A stretch of 61,403 nucleotides of DNA, from contig NZ_LXQB01000012.1 of NCBI RefSeq assembly GCF_004421185.1, forward strand, positions 1 through 61,403. Direction: 5' to 3'. The stretch comes from Methylacidiphilum sp. Yel. GTDB lineage: Bacteria; Verrucomicrobiota; Verrucomicrobiia; Methylacidiphilales; Methylacidiphilaceae. The position numbers were made by a program, and so were the translations under genes. Below the pieces are notes generated by a model. The model had not been told where the DNA came from and did not search any database. It saw only the letters and a program-made list of their open reading frames with translations. Below, one piece after another: positions 7,894 through 17,461 of the stretch (within the stretch, counting starts at the first letter, position 1; every line of letters begins with the position of its first letter).

Positions 7894-8736
7894 CTATGGA
7901 AATCCAATCAGGCTCGTTTTAGTCTGATCAGCTAAACTTACTACCTTTTCCTTCTCCAAAATAAGCGTCTTTGCTGATTCGCATACAATGGTACCAATGC
8001 CAAAACGTTGAGCTGACTCAATCGTCTTGATCCCTATAACAGGAACATCAAACCTAAAATCTTGATTAGGCTTGCTAACTTTCACTAGCATGGCACTTCC
8101 TCTTCCCAATTCTCCGCCTCTTTTCATGGCCTCATCGGTTCCTTCAAATGCCTCAACCGATAGCACCGTTCCATTTTTAACCACAACCGATTGACCTATA
8201 TCAAGCCTTGCAATTTCTTTGGCGATTTTAAACCCAAACTCAACATCCTCCCAATATCTTTTTTTAATTTGAGGGCCTCCAAATTGTCCAGAAGGGGCTA
8301 ATTGGTCTTCCAAAAAAGTAGTGGCATTTAAAAGAATGACCCCATTTTTTTCAAGCTCTTGAGCAATAGCTCCAAAAATTGTATGAGCATTTCTTTCCTT
8401 AAGTTTTGCTAAAAGCAAAATTGCTCGCAGATCAGGTCTTAATTCAAAAAGATGGGATGGAGCTATCCCCCCGGCCATGATTGCTGTGTTGACTTCATTT
8501 TTTTTGAAAAATTGAATTAATTTAGACAGTTGACCAACCCGAATCCATTCCACTGCAGTCGAAAGAGTTTCCATCTGATGATCTGTTTCGGACACAAAAC
8601 AGACTGAGAAAATCTTCTCTACTCCGGATCTTCTTGCTCCTTTGGCCACAAGCAATGGATAAACACCCCGGCCAGCAATAATACCAAGTCGATCAGCCGA
8701 CTCAAGAATTGATTTTTTTTGATTCTTAGTAATCAC
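7894..8736 (-). CDS. lpxI: UDP-2,3-diacylglucosamine pyrophosphatase, LpxI type
   Basis: LpxI hydrolyses UDP-2,3-diacylglucosamine to lipid X and UMP; it replaces LpxH in many lineages. The 280-residue protein shows the family's GIIAGRGVYPLLVAKGAR start, the IMAGGIAPSHLF segment, and the C-terminal DVPVIGIKTIESAQRFGIGTIV part (formerly DUF1009). It is the first gene of the minus-strand lipid A operon and is divergent from nusA. The substrate product feeds LpxB two genes downstream. Confidence 0.92.
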   Translation of the reverse strand: MITKNQKKSILESADRLGIIAGRGVYPLLVAKGARRSGVEKIFSVCFVSETDHQMETLSTAVEWIRVGQLSKLIQFFKKNEVNTAIMAGGIAPSHLFELRPDLRAILLLAKLKERNAHTIFGAIAQELEKNGVILLNATTFLEDQLAPSGQFGGPQIKKRYWEDVEFGFKIAKEIARLDIGQSVVVKNGTVLSVEAFEGTDEAMKRGGELGRGSAMLVKVSKPNQDFRFDVPVIGIKTIESAQRFGIGTIVCESAKTLILEKEKVVSLADQTKTSLIGFP

Positions 8737-8800: not shown

Positions 8801-8829
8801 TTGACCATAGAGAACGATAAGAGTAAATT
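8801..8829 (+). promoter_or_regulatory. candidate sigma-70 promoter for nusA
   Basis: TTGACC (8801-8806) and TAAATT (8824-8829) are separated by 17 bases. Transcription would begin near 8836, some 20 bases before the hairpin in the nusA leader. Confidence 0.5.
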
Positions 8830-8858
8830 ATTGCACCACTGATTTTTTTGATTTGAAG

Positions 8859-8893
8859 AGTGGAAACTATGTTAAAGTTTCCACTTTTTTCTT
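8859..8893 (+). terminator. intrinsic-terminator-like hairpin in the nusA 5' leader
   Basis: A perfect 9-bp stem, AGTGGAAAC (8859-8867) with GTTTCCACT (8877-8885), encloses a 9-base loop and is followed at once by a T-rich tract. It lies between the candidate promoter (8801-8829) and the nusA Shine-Dalgarno (8901-8905), so RNA polymerase must read through it to express nusA. It could be an attenuator, possibly sensitive to NusA itself; this is an inference from structure and place. Confidence 0.6.
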
Positions 8894-8912
8894 TAAAATT
8901 AAGGAGAAAGCC

Positions 8913-10169
8913 ATGAATCAGGAAGTCCTAGCTATCATGGAATACATGGAAAAGGAAAAAGGGATCAATAGGCAGGTGTTCATCGAAGCGATGCAGTCAG
9001 CTTTATTGGCGGCCGCAAAAAAAAGCATCGGACCTGCCAGGGATCTTAGGGTAGAGATCCATCCTAAAACTGGGCGAATCAATGTTCGAGCCAAACTCGA
9101 AGTTGTTGAAAAAGTCCAAAACAGCCATGATCAAATTTCCATCAAAAGAGCAAAAGAAATCGATCCAAATGTCAAGCTTGGAGATCTGATTGAAGTGGAA
9201 GTGACTCCGAAAGATTTTGGCAGAATTGCAGCTCAAGTTTTTAAACAGACTATAAACCAAGCCCTCAAAGGCATAGAAAGAAAAATGGTTCTGTCAGAAT
9301 TTAAAGATCGCATTAACAATATTGTTAGCGGCACCATCCGAAGAATAGAGAGAGCTGATGTAATAATAGACTTGGGAAGATATGAAGGCGTAATGCCTGC
9401 TAAAGAAAGAGTGCCTACAGAAGAGTACGTTGTTGGGGAAAGAATAAAGGCCTATGTACTTTCCGTAGAAGACACTCCCCATGGCCCTATGATTATTTTG
9501 TCTCGAAGCCATCCTAATTTCATACTGCGCCTTCTCGAATTAGAGGTCAGTGAAGTAGCAGATAAAATTGTCGAAGTAAAAGCCATCGCTAGAGAACCTG
9601 GATTTCGCACAAAAATTGCCGTTTGGACAAACAATCCAAAAATTGATCCTGTCGGTTCCTGCGTTGGTGTCCGTGGGGCGCGTGTAAAAAACATTGTCAG
9701 AGAGTTGCATAGCGAAAAGATCGATTTATTCAAATGGTCACCCAATGTAGAAGAACTAACTATTGAAGCTTTAAAACCCGCAAAAGTAAAGAAAGTGGAA
9801 GTGGATCAAGACCACCACCGGGTAAAAGTAACAGTGGATGAAGAAAATTATTCTATAGCGCTTGGCAGAAAAGGGAAAAATATTTGGCTTGCATCCAAAA
9901 TTGTGGGCTGGGATATAGACGTTGTCAAAGAACCCTCAGCCGCCGTGGATAATTTCACACAAAAGCTTACCAAAGCCGCTGAAGAGATGGCCTCTACGCT
10001 TTCTATTGATCAAAGCGTGGCTGAACAAATAGTAAGAGCAGGCTTTATCAATCCTGAAGCTGTGGCTGAAAGTGAAGAAGAAGATCTTATGTCTGCTCTT
10101 CCTGAGCTGGATCCGCAGTTGATCCATCGCTTAAAAGAAGCGGCTCACTTGGCAGGAAAAACAAATTGA
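8913..10169 (+). CDS. nusA: transcription termination/antitermination factor NusA
   Basis: NusA binds RNA polymerase and nascent RNA and modulates pausing, termination and antitermination. The 418-residue protein has the N-terminal polymerase-binding domain, an S1 domain (about 125-200, GTIRRIERADVIIDLGRYEG), and two KH domains (DPVGSCVGVRGARVKNIV and ALGRKGKNIWLASK). A short helix-hairpin-helix-like tail replaces the acidic repeats of E. coli. The start at 8913 has AAGGAG (8901-8906) at good spacing; an upstream in-frame ATG at 8853 lies before the leader hairpin and is rejected. It heads nusA-infB-rbfA. Confidence 0.96.
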   Translation: MNQEVLAIMEYMEKEKGINRQVFIEAMQSALLAAAKKSIGPARDLRVEIHPKTGRINVRAKLEVVEKVQNSHDQISIKRAKEIDPNVKLGDLIEVEVTPKDFGRIAAQVFKQTINQALKGIERKMVLSEFKDRINNIVSGTIRRIERADVIIDLGRYEGVMPAKERVPTEEYVVGERIKAYVLSVEDTPHGPMIILSRSHPNFILRLLELEVSEVADKIVEVKAIAREPGFRTKIAVWTNNPKIDPVGSCVGVRGARVKNIVRELHSEKIDLFKWSPNVEELTIEALKPAKVKKVEVDQDHHRVKVTVDEENYSIALGRKGKNIWLASKIVGWDIDVVKEPSAAVDNFTQKLTKAAEEMASTLSIDQSVAEQIVRAGFINPEAVAESEEEDLMSALPELDPQLIHRLKEAAHLAGKTN

Positions 10170-10203: not shown

Positions 10204-12291
10204 ATGAATTCGAAAAAATGTTCTCCAACAAATGAAATAAAATCGTTTGCTAGCAATTCGCCCAATAGACTTTCTTTAGACAAACCGAAGAAGTCTACCA
10301 AGGAGGCTGATTTTTCATTGACTGCGAAAGAAAAAAAACCTAAAGCAGTTGTTGCCCCTGCCTTGGATTCAGAAGAGAGAAAAGAAAAAACCAAAAAAGA
10401 AGAAAAAAAAGATGCTTCTCTATCCATTCTTCCTTCTCTAGAGAAAGAAAATAATAAAGCCATTCCAGTTCTAGAAGCCTCTAAGCCAGCCCTCCCCAAG
10501 GAAGGGGAAAAGCGAGTGATTGCTATCAAAGGGCCAGTTTCAGTAAAAGAATTAGCTGGCTTGATCGGAATCAAACCTTTTCAACTTATTCACCATTTGA
10601 TGGAAATGAACATATTCGCTTCAATGACCCAGTTGCTAGACGAAGGGGTCATTCAGGGAGTATGTCAGAGACTTGGAATAACTATACAGACTGACAAAAA
10701 GGAACGGCATGGACCAGTTCATCCAACACCCTTAGTAAAGCCAAAGGCTCAACCTCCCCCCCCCCAACCCCTATCTAATATTAAATCAAGAGCCCCTGTA
10801 GTAACTTTCATGGGGCATGTGGATCATGGGAAGACTTCGCTACTTGATGCCATAAGACAAACAAAAGTTGCGGCAGGAGAAGCCGGTGGAATAACACAAC
10901 ATATTGGTGCTTATACAGTGGTGAAAGATGGACGATCCATAACATTTATCGATACTCCTGGACATGAAGCGTTTACAGCTATGCGTGCCCGTGGAGCTTC
11001 GATCACCGATATTGTGGTTCTAGTTGTAGCCGCCGATGATGGAGTCATGCCTCAAACCTTAGAAGCCATCAATCATGCCCGCAACGCCAAAGTTCCTATT
11101 ATTGTGGCTATAAACAAAATAGACCTGCCTGGGGCTAATCCTCTACGGGTAAAATCTCAACTCCAAGAGATCGGTCTTGTCCCCGAGGAATATGGGGGAG
11201 AGACCATTTTTTGTGAAGTCTCAGCTATCAAAAAAATTGGCATCGACAACCTCCTCGATATGATTTTACTTCAAGCTGAAATCCTTGAATTAAAAGCCAA
11301 TTATGAAGGCAATGCCAAAGCTAGGGTTATCGAATCGCAGATAGAAAAAGGCAGGGGACCAACGGCCACAGTGATTATCCAATCGGGTCATCTAAAAGTC
11401 GGAGATATTGTCCTTTGTGGGATTTATTATGGGAAAGTCCGAGCTCTTATTGATGATACTGGGAAGAACATCAAAGAGGCTTTTCCTTCTATGCCCGTCA
11501 AGATTCTTGGTCTCAACGGCCCCCCTCTACCTGGAGAAGAATTAGTCGTTGAAAAGGATGAAAAGAAGGTAAAAGAAATAGTTCAAGAAAGAATTGAAGC
11601 CCTTAAGAAAGACCGTGAAGCCTCTCTTACACCTAAAGTCACTCTAGAAAACATCTTCCAAGCAATTGAAGAGGGTCAAAAAAAGACTTTGAATATTGTT
11701 CTTAAAGCCGATGTTCAAGGCTCTCTAGAAGCTCTCATTGACCAATTGAAAAAAATCTCTAGTCAAAAAGTCGATTTAGACATCATTCATTCTGGTGTGG
11801 GTTCCATTTCAGAATCTGATATCCTTCTTGCAAAGGCTGCCGGTGGACTTGTCATCGGATTTAATACAAAAACTGACTCTGCTGCAGCTGCGTTGGCAAA
11901 AAGAGAAGGGGTTCAAATTAAGCTTTTCAGTGTTATTTATGAACTAGTTGACCAAGTCAAAGAAGCAATGTCTGGTCTTCTAGAACCTGAACTACGAGAG
12001 TCTATTGTCGGTACAGCCGTAGTCAAGAAAGTCTTCGAATTGTCTAAATATAAAGTAGCAGGTTGTATGGTCCAATCTGGACGAATTATACGAGGTGGAT
12101 TAGCTAGAGTTTTACGAGGTAAACAGCCTATATATGATGGGGAAGTTCTTTCGCTGAAACGCTTTCAAGATGAAGTATCAGAAGTGAGGATGGGGTTTGA
12201 ATGTGGTATTCGCCTAGGAAATTTCAACGATTATGAGCCTGATGATATTATTCAATGTTATCAATTGGAAAAGGTGCCACAAAGTTTATAA
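10204..12291 (+). CDS. infB: translation initiation factor IF-2
   Basis: IF-2 is the GTPase that brings initiator tRNA to the 30S subunit and promotes subunit joining. The 695-residue protein has a short Lys/Glu-rich variable N-terminal part (about 1-185), then the G domain with [20 protein letters not shown] and NKID motifs, and two beta-barrel domains plus the domain that binds fMet-tRNA. The N-terminal part is shorter than in E. coli. A run of ten C residues (10756-10765) encodes a Pro stretch just before the G domain. There is no clear Shine-Dalgarno. It lies 34 bases after nusA. Confidence 0.96.
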
Positions 12292-12320: not shown

Positions 12321-12674
12321 ATGACAACTAGAGCGATTAGGGTTTCGGAAGTCATCCGTCGGGAGTTATCTTGGTGCTTTCAGCGAGAAGTAGAACTCGA
12401 AGGCTTAGTGTTAACTATATCTGCCGTAGAAACTTCCGCTGATCTTAAAGAAGCTTCCATTTTTGTTAGCCTTTTTGACGCCTCCATCCCTGATGAAAAC
12501 TTGCTTATGATTTTAAATAGGCACCGAAACGAATGGCAAAAGTGGATTGGGAAGAGATTGCAAAGCAAATTTACACCACGGTTGACTTTTAAAATCGATA
12601 ATTCATTAGATAGAGGAGACCGAGTATTACGTATCATCGAAGAACTTGACAAAGAAACAAATACAGACTCATAG
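12321..12674 (+). CDS. rbfA: 30S ribosome-binding factor A
   Basis: RbfA binds immature 30S subunits and assists 16S rRNA 5' end maturation. The 117-residue protein has the single KH-like domain of the family, with RAIRVSEVIRRELS at the start, the VSLFD segment in the middle and the RLTFKIDNSLDRGDRVLRI strand-helix near the end. It lies 29 bases after infB in the classical nusA-infB-rbfA order. Confidence 0.93.
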   Translation: MTTRAIRVSEVIRRELSWCFQREVELEGLVLTISAVETSADLKEASIFVSLFDASIPDENLLMILNRHRNEWQKWIGKRLQSKFTPRLTFKIDNSLDRGDRVLRIIEELDKETNTDS

Positions 12675-15862: not shown

Positions 15863-17311
15863 TTAATCCTTAAGATTCATCGAAAGGAGAAATTCAACGT
15901 TATTTTTAGTTTTTTTCAGTCTTTCGAGTAATAATTCCATGGCTTCTATCGGAGGAACTGACGATAAGGCTCTCCGGAGCACATGAATCCTTACAAGCTC
16001 ATCTGGATGATAGAGTAATTCTTCTCTACGAGTACCAGATTTAGGAATGTTGATCGCTGGATAAATTCTTTTATCGACAAGTGCTCTATCCAGATGCAAT
16101 TCCATATTTCCGGTTCCTTTGAATTCTTCGAAAATAACATCGTCCATCTTTGAGCCTGTATCAATCAGTGCGGTTGCAATAATGGTAACGCTGCCCCCTT
16201 CCTCAAGATTTCTGGCTGTTGCAAAAAATCGCCTAGGCTTTTGAAGCGCATTGGCATCAACTCCACCAGTTAAAATTTTGCCACTATGCGGTTGTAGAGT
16301 ATTATAGGCCCGAGCAAGTCTTGTCAAAGAATCCAAAAGAATCACCACATCAATCTTATTTTCGGCCATTCTTTTCGCCCTTTCTATAACCATTTCGGCC
16401 ACCTGTACATGTCTATCGGGGGTTTCATCAAAAGTGGAACTGATAACCTCTCCTTTTACCGATCTTTCCATGTCAGTTACTTCTTCAGGCCGTTCATCAA
16501 CAAGTAGGACGATAAGATGGGCTTCAGGATGATTTTCAGTAATGGCATTGGCTATTTTCTGAATCAAAACTGTTTTACCTGTTCTTGGAGGAGCAACAAT
16601 TAAGCCTCTTTGACCAAATCCAATGGGAGTGATCAGATCCATGACTCGCATGGAAAGATCCCCACTTTTACCCTCCAAAAAGATTCTTCTATTTGGAAAA
16701 ATAGGTGTTAAATTGTCAAAAATGATTCTACCACGAATCTTTTCGGGTTCTTCATTCTCAATTTTTTCAACTTGGAGCAGGGAAAAATACCGTTCTTTTT
16801 CCTTAGGGGGTCGAATAGGTCCAGAAACCAAATTGCCTTTCTTTAGCCCATATTTTCTGATTAAAGCAGGAGAAACATACACATCCTCTTGACAAGGGAA
16901 ATAATTGTATGCTTCTGATCTTAAAAATCCATATCCTTCGGGTAATATCTCTAAAACCCCTCCTCCGTAAATCGCTCCATTTCTTTGAGCATTACGCCGC
17001 AAGATTTCAAAAATTACCTCATGCTTTCTCATTAATCCCGGATTTTCAATCTGGTATTCTGCAGCTTTAATCTGCAGCTCAGAAAAGGATAACTGTTGAA
17101 GCTTACTCAGATCCAACGTAGGACCTAAGTTTACAGATTCCTCCATCCCGTTATTTTTTGTTTGAGTGATTGTCTCTTGGACAGATTTTTTAATTTCCAT
17201 ATGTTCTTCTTTTTGTTCGGAATATTCTTGAATGTTCTTTCCTTCTTCATTTTCGGCCTTCATGGAAGAAGGCATCTCGTTGTTAGAATCAAAAGTTTCC
17301 TGCGCTTTCAT
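15863..17311 (-). CDS. rho: transcription termination factor Rho
   Basis: Rho is the hexameric RNA helicase that ends untranslated transcripts. The protein has a Glu-rich N-terminal extension (about 70 residues), the Rho N-terminal helices ([18 protein letters not shown]), a cold-shock-like RNA-binding domain ([15 protein letters not shown]), and the ATPase with Walker [17 protein letters not shown] and the [13 protein letters not shown] motor block. The ATG at 17311 has a GAGGG Shine-Dalgarno seven bases upstream and gives 482 residues. An in-frame ATG at 17350 has none. The extension makes it longer than the roughly 420 residues of E. coli Rho. Confidence 0.95.
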
Positions 17312-17461
17312 CGGCTCACCCTCTGAATGATTTTTTTTTGATGCTCTCATTTTAAATTATTGTAACAACACTGAATTAAACAATCCTCAGGTTTACATTG
17401 TTGATTGTATAGGGTTTTTAGATTCCTTGACCCGCTTTATTCGAAAATTTCACAAAAGAAA

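Follow-up and report, generated by a model that had tools for sequence, protein, structure and literature searches.

The 5' leader of the nusA-infB-rbfA operon of Methylacidiphilum sp. Yel very probably contains a transcription attenuator of some kind, and the reading that we favor, and regard as likely, is that the level of NusA sets the read-through and so exerts negative feedback on the operon. The window examined here is the entire stretch of 61,403 nucleotides of contig NZ_LXQB01000012.1. A sequence-only reading had claimed a premature terminator in the nusA leader, and this claim is strongly supported by the conservation of the hairpin across the phylum, by covariation within its stem and by a conserved promoter just upstream. 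Termination at this hairpin in the cell is what the sequence features predict, and its dependence on NusA is suggested by analogy with known systems and by the association of the hairpin with nusA rather than rimP.

Organization of the nusA leader

All features of the leader are on the plus strand, and the positions proposed for the promoter, hairpin, Shine-Dalgarno sequence and ATG were confirmed base for base. The promoter, recognized from its sequence and conservation, consists of TTGACC (8801–8806) and TAAATT (8824–8829) separated by a 17-nt spacer, and the transcription start is predicted near position 8836. After approximately 20 nt follows the terminator hairpin (8859–8885), which is identified by sequence, folding, conservation and covariation. 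Its perfect 9-bp stem is formed by GTGGAAACT (8860–8868) pairing with AGTTTCCAC (8876–8884) around the loop ATGTTAA (8869–8875); G-C accounts for four of the nine pairs, and the outer pair A8859-T8885 extends the stem to 10 bp. As in an intrinsic terminator, the stem-loop directly abuts a U-rich tract (8885–8894), which reads T6 (8885–8890), C and T3 and is interrupted at its seventh position; the T-tract is conserved in both the order (A1) and the class (A2) alignments. The Shine-Dalgarno-like AAGGAG of nusA (8901–8906) precedes the ATG at 8913, giving a leader of about 77 nt, and, judging from the positions of the promoter and the U-tract, termination would leave an RNA of some 55 nt (8836–8890). 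In the genus of the window, folding predictions pair the U-tract region with the Shine-Dalgarno sequence of nusA in the read-through RNA (8885–8910), a pairing that might provide an additional, translational level of control.

The first gene of the operon is nusA (8913–10169; 418 amino acids with NusA_N, S1 and KH domains in Pfam), and the terminator lies between the promoter and this gene, which is the arrangement of an attenuator. Family searches identified infB (IF-2; 10204–12291) and rbfA (12321–12674) downstream, giving the order NusA, IF-2 and RbfA, with rimP absent ahead of nusA. A TTG start at 8853, resulting in a NusA of 438 amino acids, was rejected because it would fall within the hairpin and because the relatives begin at an ATG with an MNQE-, MSQE- or MNAE-like sequence. 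The upstream neighbor lpxI (7894–8736, minus strand; family search) is context and not part of the device.

Folding of the leader yielded −16.8 kcal/mol vs. −6.05 ± 2.41 kcal/mol for shuffled sequences (z = −4.5), and −9.9 kcal/mol at 55°C. The terminator detector gave the hairpin a score of 28.6, the highest among the 30 sites that reached at least 18 when both strands of the window were scanned; it was the sole window site at or above 26, and the maximum in six one-strand shuffles was 25.8. A simple terminator scan of the window had no entry at the hairpin, and a simple promoter scan did not rise above chance (2 found vs. 1.3 expected from shuffles). These two scans would favor a chance hairpin, with a terminator serving the gene upstream as the related possibility, but we give this explanation next to no credence: a promoter intervenes in 115 of the 117 hairpin-bearing leaders of the class, the leader hairpin is not the 3' end of the upstream gene because lpxI is divergent, and chance is refuted by conservation and covariation throughout the class. 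The hairpin call is thus secure because of its conservation, rather than because of the single sequence.

The hairpin also stands out within its own genome. A covariance model, R1, was derived from relatives (22 rows, one of which is the hairpin of the window itself); it scored 43.7 bits at the nusA leader and 25.8 bits on the antisense strand, with nothing else above 17.0 in the genome. A wider scan covered 383 kb of the same genome, comprising the window and 20 further stretches (L231–L250) with 321 gene-like open frames. It contained six sites scoring at least 26, of which three were intergenic, namely the nusA leader and both strands of one palindrome. None of the 48 gene-like frames of the window had a detector site of at least 20 in the preceding 130 nt, a count from which the nusA leader was excluded, nusA having been called there from the TTG inside the hairpin. 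Intrinsic terminators thus seem scarce at the gene ends of this genome, and Rho, for which a putative gene is found at 15863–17350 on the minus strand, is probably the main terminator. Among the few strong intrinsic terminators of the genome, one precedes the termination factor's own gene.

Conservation and covariation of the hairpin

A total of 40 Methylacidiphilales genomes, including that of the window, were searched; nusA was found in 39 and 37 leaders were assessable (nusA lies at a contig end in G015 and G032, and G029 gave no nusA match). The hairpin and its T-tract were present in all 37, despite NusA identities as low as 51%, and TTGACC was located upstream of the hairpin in 35 of them. 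The stem sequence itself is conserved in the order as GTGGRAAC/GTTYCCAC; alignment A1, in which the structure was kept in 95.2% of cells, displayed double changes at one of nine pairs. Within the order, R1 matched 19 of 20 genomes at E < 1e-6, directly before nusA. Duplicate contigs L031, L032 and L033 (equal to L017, L022 and L177) were left out of the counts, though L033 stayed in A1. The contig L022/L032 is labeled as an Akkermansia muciniphila MAG, but both its search kinship and its leader sequence place it with the Methylacidiphilales, and the label is probably wrong.

Among the class leaders, 114 of 130 scored at least 20 in the detector vs. 9 of 650 shuffles. These were the 37 from the order and 77 of the 93 from outside it, where L092, counted among the 77, is unconvincing by eye and G053 (L128), counted as a miss, has a hairpin with a long loop. 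For the phylum outside the class, the corresponding values were 45 of 52 leaders vs. 3 of 260 shuffles; left out were G156, G159, G166 and G185, in which nusA was matched only partially or lay at a contig end, and G177, which gave no match. The promoter is conserved along with the hairpin, since TTG[AC]C was found 35–74 nt upstream in 115 of the 117 hairpin-bearing class leaders, compared with 231 of 1170 shuffles. When open frames were used to orient the upstream neighbor of nusA across the class, 48 of 87 cases came out as "both".

Compensatory stem changes in relatives, which the sequence-only reading had named as a check on the hairpin, were present at 7 of 10 pairs in alignment A2. This alignment covers 62 genera of the class, aligned by sequence, with L092 dropped as an unconvincing terminator. 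A total of 91.9% of its cells were paired, a value favored by the choice of the stretches, which were included because the detector had found a stem there. Double changes occurred in 88 cells vs. 37.4 ± 4.1 after shuffling, and the covariation score was 0.473, compared with 0.252 for shuffled alignments and at most 0.196 upon sliding. The innermost stem base G-C (columns 22–46) was invariant in the 62. Besides GTGGGCC/GGCCCGC, lineage-specific stem variants included GAGTGGGTC/GACCCGCTC, AAGTCGGA/TCCGACTT and AAGTGGGT/ACCCACTT. The pattern GTGGGN{2,14}CCCRCTTTTT had 34 matches in 87 whole phylum genomes, 16 of them within 120 nt upstream of nusA as determined by comparing pattern positions with nusA coordinates by hand; in L193, the detector chose a different hairpin from the GTGGG one found by the pattern.

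The hairpin was absent in at least 10 class genomes (G054, G062, G069, G083, G090, G094, G101, G104, G119, and G131; five from family f31, two from f21, plus G069, G083, and G094), with G107 being doubtful, and it is therefore dispensable in some lineages. All five f31 genomes (L092, L094, L099, L100, and L106) are without a nusA-leader terminator; in L092, L099 and L100 of this family, a CCCGAC...GTCGGG hairpin is kept just before nusA without a T-tract.

At E ≤ 0.01, R1 matched 41 of 113 class genomes. Outside the order, 22 genomes had matches, of which 14 were directly before nusA and eight were elsewhere. A regulon was considered and rejected, as 11 places with R1 matches elsewhere in relatives were read and had no downstream gene in common. 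Several of these 11 follow a long co-directional open frame at a distance of 2–67 nt, and most look like ordinary gene-end terminators.

Gene order and the probable reader of the terminator

A search for the RimP_N domain (PF02576) recovered it from 10 of 14 named controls but gave no match in the 57 class genomes or the 87 phylum genomes. RimP is a 30S maturation factor, and its apparent absence extends throughout the 87 Verrucomicrobiota-type genomes; a very diverged RimP in the sampled Verrucomicrobiota is possible. Lineages without rimP, or in which rimP has moved, constitute a natural test of whether RimP or NusA is the reader of the terminator. The mollicutes offer a second case. Among 41 mollicute genomes, 31 loci were examined (L263–L293), and in 28 of them the 900 nt ahead of nusA contained a site with a terminator score of at least 20, compared with 5 of 310 shuffles. 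Where the hairpin was 470–600 nt from nusA, 13 loci were tested: a frame of 143–173 amino acids begins 3–28 nt behind the hairpin in 12, and the open frame begins 119 nt behind it in the thirteenth, L282. Five of these frames were searched against Pfam, and all five were RimP. In seven other loci the hairpin is 74–91 nt before nusA. On the chromosomes of G200, G203, G213, G222, G225 and G226, rimP was located far from nusA, and the phytoplasma G190 gave no rimP match. Hence the mollicute hairpin lies ahead of rimP in operons that begin with rimP, and ahead of nusA where rimP is elsewhere or absent. Since the terminator stays with nusA, and not with rimP, in both phyla, NusA is favored over RimP as the regulator; at a minimum, RimP is ruled out as an obligatory reader in these lineages.

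Some mollicute stems carry the motif of the Verrucomicrobiota, for example AGAGAGTGGGTC...ACCCGCTCT in L267 and GAGTGGGA...TTTCCACTC in L263, and GAGTGGG...CCCGCTC is common to Akkermansia-like Verrucomicrobiota and an Acholeplasma-type mollicute. Other mollicute stems, e.g., AAAGAAGGCG..., are without it, and sequence kinship across the phyla is only suggestive because the motif is not shared by all. A bolder proposal is that the terminator is an old regulatory RNA that predates the present gene order and was inherited with nusA across phyla, with its conserved stem base GTGGG/CCCAC being read directly by NusA. We hold this only tentatively and think it on balance doubtful; if true, the nusA leader would contain a sensor dedicated to NusA instead of a terminator of the generic type.

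NusA promotes hairpin-dependent termination. In the mechanism that we favor, RNA polymerase would start near position 8836 and make the short leader, after which the conserved hairpin and U-tract would lead either to release of the ~55-nt RNA or to read-through into nusA. When carried by the elongating polymerase, NusA would favor hairpin formation and pausing, such that more NusA would cause more release and less nusA mRNA, a negative feedback on NusA, IF2 and RbfA. Because the leader is short and is without a sensor domain (no aptamer or T-box domain was found in the ~20 nt available upstream of the terminator, and Rfam at gathering thresholds returned only tRNA and no cis-regulatory family in the window), direct feedback by NusA is the simplest reading. 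The features of the terminator itself bear on this in two directions. Strongly Nus-dependent terminators of B. subtilis are mostly weak hairpins, and distal U-tract interruptions are typical of NusA- and NusG-dependent ones, according to the relevant parts of a published study (PMC8060035). The strength of the stem in the window therefore argues against strict NusA dependence, and the interruption at the seventh U fits NusA dependence.

A real attenuator, or a fixed brake, could also operate with something other than the NusA level as its main input, e.g., a constant set-point, NusG, IF2, a growth-linked elongation rate or another factor. A strong stem followed by a six-U tract could terminate unaided, the conserved stem sequence may reflect another binder, and NusA and NusG are described as acting jointly at most B. 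subtilis terminators (PMC8060035). We nevertheless judge this unlikely, since in two phyla the terminator accompanies nusA irrespective of whether or where rimP occurs, and since autoregulation of B. subtilis NusA through leader termination has been reported (PMC12288461).

Sequence conservation outside the hairpin does not extend beyond the genus, and no seed-like region is kept there. For this reason we consider it very improbable that the terminated leader is a small RNA acting in trans, even though the predicted product, approximately 55 nt long and closed at its 3' side by a hairpin with a U-tract, would be a discrete RNA.

In some lineages an outer stem, P1, runs from near the predicted 5' end and closes around the hairpin. 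Its sequence varies by lineage, yet it pairs. The P1 partners paired better with their own than with swapped partners in 5000 of 5000 permutations, in a test without a control for base composition; in the shuffle test, which has that control, 12 of 62 genera reached p ≤ 0.05 against their own shuffles, and the stem was weak in the genus of the window. P1 encloses the hairpin and U-tract in L014, L016–L021, L085, L090, L091, L123, L175 and others, and as modeled it could form only in the read-through RNA. This outer stem, together with the possible U-tract/Shine-Dalgarno pairing in the genus of the window, would suit a post-transcriptional role of the hairpin as a 5' stabilizer, an RNase target or a means of masking the ribosome-binding site of nusA once read-through has occurred. 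Such a role has a slim chance of being the main one: both pairings are restricted to certain lineages, the T-tract of most other leaders ends tens of nucleotides before the ATG, and the best conserved features are those of a terminator, with the stem abutting the U-tract.

An antiterminator, in which the region before the hairpin pairs with its 5' arm, was rejected as a general feature, with 6 of 58 genera at p ≤ 0.05 being close to chance and the CCACT/AGTGG pair of the window giving p = 0.21. Two families display candidates of their own. In the Akkermansia-like family f11 (L154–L170), upstream ACCCC... or GTTCCGGTC with GATTGGGG pairs the 5' side of the terminator, with 14 of 16 at p ≤ 0.05, and an antiterminator is possible there. 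In f19 (L137–L152), CACTTT directly precedes the terminator arm AAAGTGGG and could form a competing antiterminator hairpin, such as CACTTTCCGGAAAGTG in L144, but only 2 of 12 passed the shuffle test. Lastly, the 5' arm GGGAACUC of some members of the order is similar to a site bound by the NusA KH domains in a different species, but the motif is not kept outside the order and so lends no support to sequence-specific reading through it.

Relation to known leader terminators

Rfam contains a rimP-leader family. At E ≤ 5, 12 nusA loci had no rimP-leader match and no credible cis-regulatory match; weak L20_leader matches over the leader in L001 (1401–1486, 26.5 bits) and L005 (2770–2855, 23 bits), relative to a gathering threshold of 58.7, were taken as chance. 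The closest known element is this rimP-leader, a conserved terminator ahead of rimP-nusA-infB that Naville and Gautheret described in 2010 (PMC2965389). The parts of that paper dealing with the rimP-leader describe no larger conserved element or antiterminator, and leave open whether RimP or NusA is the reader, with NusA favored. The likeness is considerable, since the rimP-leader is a short, sequence-conserved terminator with a G-rich 5' arm, a C-rich 3' arm and a T-stretch ahead of a NusA/IF2 operon, and lies 4–130 nt before the first gene (PMC2965389). It differs in preceding rimP, whereas the hairpin of the Verrucomicrobiota, in which rimP was not found, precedes nusA directly. Moreover, its core is GGGc(...)gCCC, whereas that of the window is GTGGAAAC/GTTTCCAC; the GGGc/gCCC core does occur in some relatives, many of which have GTGGGCC/GGCCCGC.

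In E. coli, a NusA feedback at the metY-rimP-nusA-infB leader was reportedly proposed by Bylund in 2011. Within the metY-rimP interval of E. coli K-12 we found GCCCCGATTTATCGGGGTTTTTT and GGGCTTTAGGCCCTTTTTTT, in agreement with the motif and with the tandem terminators published upstream of rimP in that operon (PMC6511841). The GGGCTTTAGGCCCTTTTTTT element just before rimP is a GGGC/GCCC hairpin with a T-tract and thus resembles the nusA leader; E. coli differs in its two tandem terminators, its other stem sequence, and the tRNA gene and rimP ahead of nusA. In S. agalactiae, the leader RNA of rimP-nusA ends 31 nt after the start site, and the pertinent part of the report proposes a NusA feedback (PMC4448216). 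There too the terminator is close behind the start, with short and long RNAs observed by RNA-seq (PMC4448216); rimP leads that operon, however, and its RNA was measured, whereas the Methylacidiphilum leader RNA is predicted from sequence.

A further precedent is B. subtilis, in which NusA-stimulated termination in its own leader autoregulates NusA (Mondal et al., 2016, as summarized in the review PMC12288461). Both leaders have an intrinsic terminator ahead of a nusA-containing operon; read-through set by NusA has been shown by experiment in B. subtilis (PMC12288461) and is inferred in Methylacidiphilum. The B. subtilis operon is headed by rimP (ylxS; PMC2965389), unlike that of Methylacidiphilum, and in the Verrucomicrobiota and the mollicutes it is nusA, not rimP, that the element accompanies. 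Among the open-access papers searched, none was found that described a nusA-leader terminator in the Verrucomicrobiota. The rimP-free leaders, at about 77 nt, are simple templates for a direct in vitro test. The device is hence a known kind of attenuator, which differs in its altered core and in its rimP-less position next to nusA; the new point is comparative, in that gene order in two phyla indicates that the terminator follows nusA and not rimP.
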